Made by a program: the position numbers and the translations under genes
Part shown: positions 17,826 through 37,381 of the stretch, piece after piece
Layout of the letters: every line of letters starts with the position of its first letter
Numbering within the stretch: position 1 is the first letter of the stretch
DNA from: Desulfovibrionales bacterium
GTDB lineage: Bacteria; Desulfobacterota; Desulfovibrionia; Desulfovibrionales; Desulfomicrobiaceae
Direction of reading: 5' to 3'
DNA length: 38,074 nt
Assembly: GCA_012727715.1 (NCBI GenBank)
Contig: JAAYGN010000139.1
Coordinates: 1 to 38,074, forward strand
Notes under the pieces: model-generated
The model's input: the letters and a program-made list of their open reading frames with translations, nothing else
Told to the model about the DNA's origin: nothing
Database searches by the model: none

Positions 17826-19382
17826 TTAACTATTTTCTGGTTTGGGGATGAGGCGTCTATTTTCATCCCAAATTTGCTCTGCTTTGGGCATAAGATCAAT
17901 ATACTTAAACCAGACATGGCTTTCCATGTGTTCTGGATCCATTTGCAGCTCACGACTATGGTACAAAATGGGTGGTACAAGTTCCTTGATATCTTTAGAC
18001 ATGGCTTCAGCTATGGTGAAATCCGCAGCCTGAATTGCAAAATCTACAGCTTTTTGGCTAAACTGTTGAGATTTGGCCAAAGTATCCAGTGCCTTGGTGG
18101 GGTTATGGAACCCAACACTATTTTCTGCTGAGATAAGATCCCAGAAGAATTGTCCCTTACGGCACATTTCGCGGGCATTGATCATAAGCTGATTATAGTT
18201 ATAGGGCCGTGGACCTTCATATTCATTTGCTCTGCGGATAGCTTCATGCGCCTTAACGGAAATGTCTTGGGCTATCATGAGTTGATCCCAAACTTTATTT
18301 TGGGTGTAAACTACGCGTTCACGCAAGTATTCAGGTGATTTATCTGTGTGGCATTGACGGCAGGCCCTGGCATCAGGATCTTTGAGAGGGGAAGTCCAAT
18401 GATGGCTGGAGAGCTTTTTCTTTCCATCCATGCGCACATAACTCATGTGACAATCAGCGCAACTGACACCAGCAGCACCATGGATGCCATTGTGCCAGGT
18501 TTCGTATTCAGGATGTTGAGCTTTGAGCATGGGAGTTTTGGATACAGGGTGGACCCAGTCCGCAAAATTGCCTTCAAATCCTGGAGTTTTGGTATTGCCT
18601 TTGTCTTTGTAATATTCATAAATTTGTTCGGGATCTTTGCCTAAAGCCCAGGGGAAAACTGGCTTTTTGTTTGCGCCATGTCCTTCATCTGTAAAATAGT
18701 ATTCTACATGGCATTGACCACAAATAAGGGCACGCTGCTCATTACGAGGCAGGTTTTCAAATTTTTTCCCTTCAGACTCCAGATGGACTTTGAGGGGCTC
18801 AGAATAAATACGCAGTTCCATATTGGTTGGATTGTGGCAGCTAGCACAGCCAATGGTGTGATCATCCATGTCCACTTCTTCGCGGAACTGATTGAAGTCT
18901 TTAGCCCAAAATTCATCACCATATTCTTTGACCCAATCAATCATTTTGGCACCCTTGCAGTTCCAGCAGGTAGCCGGGAGTCCAGCTTTTTCAGCATATC
19001 GATTAAGGCGGTCGATATTTAAAATATCTTTTAGTGCGTAGGTATGGCCTCGGGCTGCTTTATATTCATAGCTAAAGGGGTAACCCAGCCAAAGATTTTT
19101 TAAATAGGGTTGGGCATGTTTATAGCCCTGGGGTAGAGGATTAACATTGTCATGTTTGTCATAGGCTACAGAGCCACCGTACTCAGTCATAATTTCCGAT
19201 TCATTATTACGCAAAAAAGTTTCATATTGCAGTGGAAATTCATTTTTAAAGGCTGAGTTTTTAATCTCAGTTTCAGGTAATTTGGTATTAAATTGAGGAG
19301 TTGTTGGCTCAGAAGTGTCGCTACATCCAGTCAAAACCAGGCTAGCGGCCAATAAAGTTAGAAAGATTATTGTTCTACGCAT
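17826..19382 (-). CDS. nrfA: Ammonia-forming cytochrome c nitrite reductase NrfA
   Basis: Reduces nitrite to ammonium with six electrons on the outer face of the cytoplasmic membrane. 518 residues. An N-terminal lipobox (LTGC, Cys near 19) makes it a lipoprotein. Five haem sites: the active-site CWNCK with lysine as haem ligand, then CASCH, CGQCH (in GQCHVEYYF, the calcium/active-site tyrosine region), CADCH and CRQCH. The catalytic-histidine region appears as KAQHPEYETWHNGIHG. The start is ATG 19382 with AGGAG 8 nt upstream; a GTG at 19391 is in frame. It overlaps nrfH by 8 nt and ends before the palindromic terminator. Confidence 0.97.
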   Translation of the reverse strand: MRRTIIFLTLLAASLVLTGCSDTSEPTTPQFNTKLPETEIKNSAFKNEFPLQYETFLRNNESEIMTEYGGSVAYDKHDNVNPLPQGYKHAQPYLKNLWLGYPFSYEYKAARGHTYALKDILNIDRLNRYAEKAGLPATCWNCKGAKMIDWVKEYGDEFWAKDFNQFREEVDMDDHTIGCASCHNPTNMELRIYSEPLKVHLESEGKKFENLPRNEQRALICGQCHVEYYFTDEGHGANKKPVFPWALGKDPEQIYEYYKDKGNTKTPGFEGNFADWVHPVSKTPMLKAQHPEYETWHNGIHGAAGVSCADCHMSYVRMDGKKKLSSHHWTSPLKDPDARACRQCHTDKSPEYLRERVVYTQNKVWDQLMIAQDISVKAHEAIRRANEYEGPRPYNYNQLMINAREMCRKGQFFWDLISAENSVGFHNPTKALDTLAKSQQFSQKAVDFAIQAADFTIAEAMSKDIKELVPPILYHSRELQMDPEHMESHVWFKYIDLMPKAEQIWDENRRLIPKPENS

Positions 19383-19851
19383 CAGCAGCACTCCTATAGG
19401 CTATGGGCTTTTTGGGTGTATGAGGTACATGACGATGGCAGTCAGTACAAAATTCCTTGCTTTGCATGGTCACGGTACTGGTTGTAGCACTATGGCAACG
19501 TTCACAATTGGCCTGTGTTACCGCTTTAGTTTCACCGCCTGGATGGATTAGATCTGGAATAGTATTGGTGAAGTTTACATAAATATCATGCAGACCTATT
19601 TTGGCCTTAAAGGGGAGCATGGTTATGTCGTGGGGGATATGACACTCATTGCAGGCTTCTTTAGCGTGCACTGACTGGCTGTGTGTCAGGGCGGCCTCAT
19701 TCATGGAATGACAGCTTCCGCAGAAAATGGCCTGATCCGTAAAGGTGATGGATAACGCCACACCAACGGTCAGTACCACCCCTGCAATGGCTGCTGGCAA
19801 GACGTAACGCAAGTTATGTCTGCTGAAAAAACCACTCTTTTTTTGGGGCAT
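19375..19851 (-). CDS. nrfH: Cytochrome c nitrite reductase small subunit NrfH
   Basis: Membrane-anchored tetrahaem cytochrome of the NapC/NirT family that takes electrons from menaquinol and passes them to NrfA. 158 residues, one membrane segment at about 17-37, then haem sites CGSCHSM (the methionine just after is the ligand of the quinol-side haem in this family), CNECH, CERCH and CTDCH. GAGGAGG is 4 nt before ATG 19851. The NrfH type of donor, rather than NrfBCD, fits deltaproteobacteria. The operon is nrfHA, with a 520-base upstream region. Confidence 0.97.
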   Translation of the reverse strand: MPQKKSGFFSRHNLRYVLPAAIAGVVLTVGVALSITFTDQAIFCGSCHSMNEAALTHSQSVHAKEACNECHIPHDITMLPFKAKIGLHDIYVNFTNTIPDLIHPGGETKAVTQANCERCHSATTSTVTMQSKEFCTDCHRHVPHTPKKPIAYRSAADA

Positions 19852-34626: not shown

Positions 34627-36568
<1,942 letters not shown>

Positions 36569-37381
36569 ATGGTCCAGGTCAACACATTAGTCATTACTGG
36601 GCATGGGATAAGTTGTGAGCGAGAGAGTGCCTTTGCAGCTGAGATGGCCGGCTCAGATCGCACTACGATTGCCTTTTTTTCTGACCTTGTGGCCAGTAAG
36701 ATTGTATTATCCAATTATAATTTGATCATTTTCCCCGGCGGTTTTCTTGACGGTGACGACTTGGGTGCAGCCCACACTGCGGCCCATCGTTGGCAACTGT
36801 CACAATCCAGCTCTGGCCGCTTGCTGATTGATGATCTGCGAAGTTTTGTCGATGATGAAAAGTTGATTTTGGGAATTGGCAATGGATTTCAGTTACTCCT
36901 TAAACTTGGACTTTTGCCAGCCCTTAATGGTCAGTACTTCACCCAACAAGGGGTCATGAGTCCGAACGATTCAGCATTATTTGAAGATCGTTGGGTTACG
37001 CTGAAGGTAAATCCTGCAAGTCCATGTGTGTTTACCCAAGGTCTTGACTATCTATACTTGCCTGTACGCCATGCTGAAGGGAAATTTGTGCCTCTGGATG
37101 AACAAATCCTTACTCAGCTGCAGACACAAAATTTGATTACCTTACAATATGCAGATTCCCAAACCCTTGAGGTTACCCAGGCTTATCCAGCTAACCCCAG
37201 TGGTTCGCCCTTAGGTATTGCCGGCTTGACGGATTCATCAGGTCGAATTTTGGGGCTTATGCCTCATCCTGAGGCCTACACACATCTGACCAACCATCCG
37301 CGTTGGACCAGGGGAGAAACAGCAACTTTGGGAACAGTCTTGTTGCAAAAGGGTGTTGAGTATCTCAGAAGCAAAAAGTGA
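36569..37381 (+). CDS. purQ: PurQ-like class I glutamine amidotransferase, nucleophile Cys replaced by Gly
   Basis: 270 residues resembling the glutaminase part of phosphoribosylformylglycinamidine synthase: GHGISCERE at the N-terminus (PurQ has GTNCERE), then IIFPGGFLDGDDLGAA, then the elbow LILGIGNGFQLLLKLGLLP, and GLMPHPEAYTH near the end. In active members the elbow reads GICNGFQ with the catalytic cysteine; here the codon is GGC (Gly), one base from TGC. The His and Glu of the triad (HPE) remain. It may therefore depend on free ammonia or have a structural or regulatory role. GGAGG precedes ATG 36569. tadA follows 60 nt downstream; no purL is in view. Confidence 0.75.
   Translation: MVQVNTLVITGHGISCERESAFAAEMAGSDRTTIAFFSDLVASKIVLSNYNLIIFPGGFLDGDDLGAAHTAAHRWQLSQSSSGRLLIDDLRSFVDDEKLILGIGNGFQLLLKLGLLPALNGQYFTQQGVMSPNDSALFEDRWVTLKVNPASPCVFTQGLDYLYLPVRHAEGKFVPLDEQILTQLQTQNLITLQYADSQTLEVTQAYPANPSGSPLGIAGLTDSSGRILGLMPHPEAYTHLTNHPRWTRGETATLGTVLLQKGVEYLRSKK

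Follow-up and report, generated by a model that had tools for sequence, protein, structure and literature searches.

Coupling of a glutaminase to a synthetase through an ammonia tunnel is, to our knowledge, regarded as nearly universal for amidotransferases. In a survey covering 490-886 genomes for each enzyme, a glutaminase component was in no case missing for AsnB, PyrG, GuaA, PurL, TrpDE, CarAB, or GatABC, and NadE alone was often without one, glutaminase components and not Cys residues being scored (PMC3376133). Single enzymes are nevertheless able to work with ammonia: CPS I is devoid of the catalytic Cys and runs on free ammonia (PMC7657897), a GMP synthetase mutated at the catalytic Cys had no glutamine-dependent activity and made GMP when given NH4Cl (PMC9312489), and a hisH deletion mutant of C. 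glutamicum grew with ammonia (PMC3896937). The PurQ described here shares its fold, length, and His-Glu pair with T. maritima PurLQS (3d54) and with the GATase domain of Salmonella PurL (1t3t) and, like in the known PurQ systems, its partner PurL is encoded elsewhere; however, whereas the known PurQ and PurL GATases have a Cys nucleophile, this protein has Gly at that position and changed neighbours.

The window analysed here (the whole stretch of 38,074 nucleotides) is contig 79 of a 2.53-Mb MAG made of 271 contigs, which is 91.9% complete. The purQ gene (36569-37381, + strand) is an intact ORF coding for 270 aa and preceded by a ribosome-binding-site-like GGAGG (36560-36564, + strand). Its product matched GATase_5 in profile searches (E 3e-73), and it also matched the NCBIfam PurQ models with scores below their curated cut-offs. 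An AlphaFold model (pLDDT 92, pTM 0.92) showed the class I GATase fold, its best structural matches being FGAM synthetases (E 1e-19), T. maritima PurQ among them. The gene and its neighbours stand in the order pyrG-purQ-tadA, as elsewhere in the genus, and a free-standing PurL of 992 aa, with a PurS-like N-terminus and devoid of a GATase domain, is encoded in contig 248. The ORF, profile match, structure model, and synteny identified the gene as a PurQ orthologue whose glutaminase is predicted to be dead. A second purQ or a purL with a fused glutaminase was looked for in the assembly, and neither was found.

The original prediction was that the nucleophile elbow of this protein reads GIGNGFQ, with Gly in place of the catalytic Cys. 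This reading was confirmed: residue 104 is encoded by GGC (36878-36880, + strand), a phmmer alignment pairs it with the Cys in the GATase domain of Salmonella FGAM synthetase, and in the model it sits at the tip where strand 99-103 passes into helix 105-113, that is, the nucleophile elbow. The catalytic His and Glu were also found to be kept as proposed, in His233-Pro-Glu235 (37265-37273, + strand), H168, H233, and E235 being retained in all 30 aligned PurQ. Thus, the protein has the His and Glu of the triad and Gly104 at the nucleophile position. Surveying the residue among relatives, as had been suggested, revealed Cys in 49/49 PurQ read from the same order and in 29/29 others of a wider alignment, and the DNA pattern for GIGNGFQLL was present in 1/297 genomes of the order, the present one. 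A Gly shared by the whole clade was thereby ruled out.

The idea that only the nucleophile had been lost did not hold. Of the 75 columns that do not vary among the other 49 PurQ, eight differ here (N15S, Q69H, C104G, S129V, L130M, G169A, N211S, and P223S), while in a leave-one-out control ten other PurQ rows showed 0-2 changed invariant columns each. Two of these changes, Ser15 (36611-36613, + strand) and Ala169 in the motif RHAEGK (37073-37075, + strand), replace an Asn and a Gly, respectively, that are found in 29/29 other aligned PurQ. The distance of PurQ to that of genome G009 is 30%, compared to 14% for G005 and 9% for G004; the corresponding values for PurL are 27%, 21%, and 16%. PurQ has therefore been accelerated more than PurL.

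The other class I amidotransferases of the genome were read as a control for PurQ. In CarA, GLGLGYQ replaces GICLGHQ and the HPE motif is lost. GuaA contains GVGYGLSL, instead of the GICYGMQL of eleven family comparators and the GVCYGMQT of E. coli, and its SHGD motif is lost. By contrast, pyrG (34627-36267, - strand), which adjoins purQ and codes for CTP synthase, served as an internal control and has an intact glutaminase site (GICLGMQ and FHPE). Neither TrpG nor HisH was found in searches of the genome, while five sister genomes contain five or six PF00117 proteins each. The trp operon retains E, D, C, F, and B, and trpD begins just behind trpE, where G015 has trpG in between; hisF has no adjoining hisH. 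In TrpE (L162:823-2295), a conserved chorismate-enzyme motif is altered, reading MLVALGCQDLERIA vs MLVDLGRNDLGRIA in G015, and this change may be either adaptation or decay.

Similar changes were found in glutaminases of other folds. An AsnB-like protein of the Ntn type starts with MSGFAG, with Ser for Cys2, and has lost the RRL and NGE motifs, its synthetase part being kept. Two CobB/CbiA-type proteins (GATase_3) contain AEGGG (CbiA, C to G) and AESGG (a paralogue, C to S), where all 10 and 11 comparators, respectively, have AECGG. One of the two genes adjoins a CbiD-like gene, and the other product is taken by us to be a DsrN-like paralogue. GatA, of the amidase type, retains residues that we take to be the catalytic Lys, cis-Ser, and Ser; it shows GGSC for GGSS, DTTGS for DTGGS, and a deletion plus replacement around the DPLQMYLxDIFT segment, which in GatA structures holds a glutamine-binding Asp. 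GatA is thus probably affected by loss of glutaminase function. PurF keeps its Cys and surroundings. Accordingly, most, but not all, amidotransferases are affected, because PyrG and PurF are intact, and the change seen in PurQ, which had been taken as specific to it, is rather one instance of a genome-wide loss.

The six changed nucleophiles lie on six contigs and are encoded by GGC (PurQ and CbiA), GGG (CarA and GuaA), and AGT (the AsnB-like protein and the CbiA paralogue). The GGC of purQ is a single base away from TGC, as would be expected if one base had been misread or misassembled. Nevertheless, such an error is very improbable, since CarA, GuaA, the AsnB-like protein, CbiA, and its paralogue are also without the nucleophile, with differing codons, two of which are two bases from a Cys codon; besides, the cysteines of PyrG, PurF, and GuaB read normally, and seven further PurQ columns are changed. 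A general loss of cysteines was ruled out as well, since those three proteins retain the catalytic Cys. Because GGG is two bases away from a Cys codon, the losses look like separate events of different ages.

Rates of change were compared between the two parts of each enzyme. Identity to G015 was 51% for the GATase and 82% for the ATPPase of GuaA, 53% for the glutaminase part vs 69% in CarA, and 55% vs 64% in AsnB; in PurF it was 81% and 84%. Taking as a yardstick the outgroup G018 vs G015 (67% and 84% for GuaA, 72% and 76% for CarA), the GATase parts of GuaA and CarA are the accelerated ones, while relative to the sister G005 both parts of GuaA were accelerated about equally. The probability of at least six of eight nucleophiles changing at each protein's own invariant-column rate was 7e-5, assuming independence, a value that is small but not overwhelming on its own. 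The lineage is fast-evolving, with a long PurL branch. The G+C content is 45-46% here, whereas sister species have 58-60% in the region of purQ, which makes for a large shift inside a single genus.

Genomes of sisters showed partial, apparently repeated stages of loss, affecting CarA in three genomes and AsnB in one. In G005 and G011, CarA contains GIGLGYQ and HYPG for HHPE, and GuaA and PurQ are intact. In G010, CarA contains GLGLGHQ and AsnB starts with MSGIAG (Ser for Cys2), GuaA and the CbiA-type proteins being intact; a second CarA with Cys in this genome may be contamination. In G004, which belongs to the same genus and is 97% complete, PurQ keeps its Cys, and CarA, the N-terminus of GuaA, HisH, and TrpG were not found in the assembly, these absences being either gaps of its 490 contigs or a further case of loss. 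A PurL tree required at least two changes of CarA state and did not settle the position of the present genome. A single loss of CarA in the genus was not supported by this tree.

Genes of nitrogen metabolism were also searched for. The genome encodes the glutamate dehydrogenase GdhA, a single-domain NadE of the ammonia type, and a glutamine synthetase homologue in a 749-aa frame, of type III length and with weak NCBIfam scores. GltB (GOGAT), AmtB, PII, and a type I GlnA were not found in it, all of them being matched in G015. Neither the GATase nor the SIS part of GlmS was found, and 24/24 other genomes searched have GlmS; its absence may reflect a gap in the assembly, or GlcN-6-P may be made in another way, for example by NagB from ammonia. 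Since the MAG is 91.9% complete, the absences of GlmS, HisH, TrpG, GOGAT, and AmtB may partly be gaps; for trpG the junction is visible.

Based on these results, we consider it likely, with a probability of about three in four, that the dead PurQ has been kept while PurL works on free ammonia, as part of a stepwise loss of glutamine hydrolysis in most amidotransferases. PurQ would act as a folded, glutaminase-dead structural subunit of FGAM synthase, and it would have been retained because it is presumably part of the PurL complex. The original prediction of a non-glutaminase, ammonia-using subunit of FGAM synthase fits the data well, the use of ammonia being deduced from the sequences; the regulatory role offered as the other option found no support. 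In addition to PurL, free ammonia would be drawn by CarB, the ATPPase of GuaA, the synthetase part of AsnB, CbiA, HisF, and TrpE. The loss would be specific to this lineage and proceed step by step through PurQ, CarA, GuaA, the AsnB-like protein, the two CobB/CbiA-type proteins, and probably GatA, with TrpG and HisH absent. A persistently high supply of ammonia would make the loss of glutamine hydrolysis possible, and the retention of GdhA with no GOGAT or AmtB found fits such a supply. Absent glutaminase activity, the ammonia donor, the structural role of PurQ, and an ammonia-rich habitat are all what we infer from the gene content and residues described. Within the window, multihaem cytochromes similar to NrfA/NrfH were noticed by reading (17826-19851, - strand); a putative ammonia-forming nitrite reductase of this kind is a possible source of ammonia.

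A more general reductive decay would have nucleotides, amino acids, and cofactors taken up, so that the pathways are relaxed, their glutaminase sites go first, and the proteins persist as remnants. The fast lineage with its long PurL branch, the small genome, the changed TrpE motif, and the several nitrogen-metabolism genes not found would agree with it, but every frame is open and full-length, the trp operon still keeps five of its genes (E, D, C, F, and B), and PurL, CarB, HisF, PurF, and the GuaA ATPPase are retained. Moreover, the damage is concentrated in the glutaminase portions of nine proteins that are unrelated or differently placed, and we therefore regard decay as unlikely. Even less credit is given to a supply of ammonia in trans, from some other glutaminase or amidotransferase, with glutamine remaining the source. 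As the genome was read in part, a donor such as a stand-alone glutaminase may be encoded elsewhere in it; however, a single donor would have to dock with many unrelated synthetases, HisF and HisH need matching partners (PMC3896937), and the assembly yielded no second PurQ. Turning back to free ammonia as the nitrogen donor, a bolder reading is probable, though somewhat less so than the explanation preferred above. It would make most amidotransferases of this bacterium natural ammonia-only enzymes that have lost either the nucleophile or the whole glutaminase subunit, in at least two and probably three unrelated glutaminase folds, with sisters at intermediate stages; among the amidotransferases found, PurF and PyrG would be the only ones to hydrolyse glutamine.

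The proposed enzyme-by-enzyme dismantling, together with its earlier stages in sisters, makes it possible to test when coupling is needed. The lineage also allows the roles of dead glutaminase domains as scaffold, activator, or tunnel, and the level of free ammonia required by the cell, to be tested. Furthermore, whole-protein 'glutamine-hydrolyzing' models give the dead GuaA and CarA scores well over their cut-offs, a warning for annotation.

The herpesvirus homologues of FGAM synthase (TIGR01739) are recognised relatives with the same GATase fold, some of them being pseudo-amidotransferases; unlike PurQ, they are viral tegument proteins with no role in purine synthesis. Single-domain NadE carries out amidation with no glutaminase component and is of the same type as the NadE of the present genome (PMC3376133), but the single-domain form is probably ancestral, whereas here glutaminases present in sisters were lost. 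In C. glutamicum, HisF, the synthetase half, works in vivo with ammonia when HisH is deleted, although that case is a laboratory deletion of one gene, given as an unpublished observation (PMC3896937). Single cases of amidotransferases devoid of the Cys or of the glutaminase, such as CPS I and single-domain NadE, are thus known, and a genome-wide switch is unreported in the open literature searched, which, being limited to open papers, is weak evidence. The closest counterpart is CPS I of terrestrial vertebrates, an ammonia-using enzyme that has likewise kept a Cys-less glutaminase domain (PMC7657897); as in CPS I, the nucleophile is lost here and the synthetase partners PurL, CarB, HisF, and the GuaA ATPPase, as well as PurF, are retained. 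However, CPS I is one enzyme of a urea-producing tissue, whereas in this single bacterium the change affects several enzymes that are unrelated to each other.
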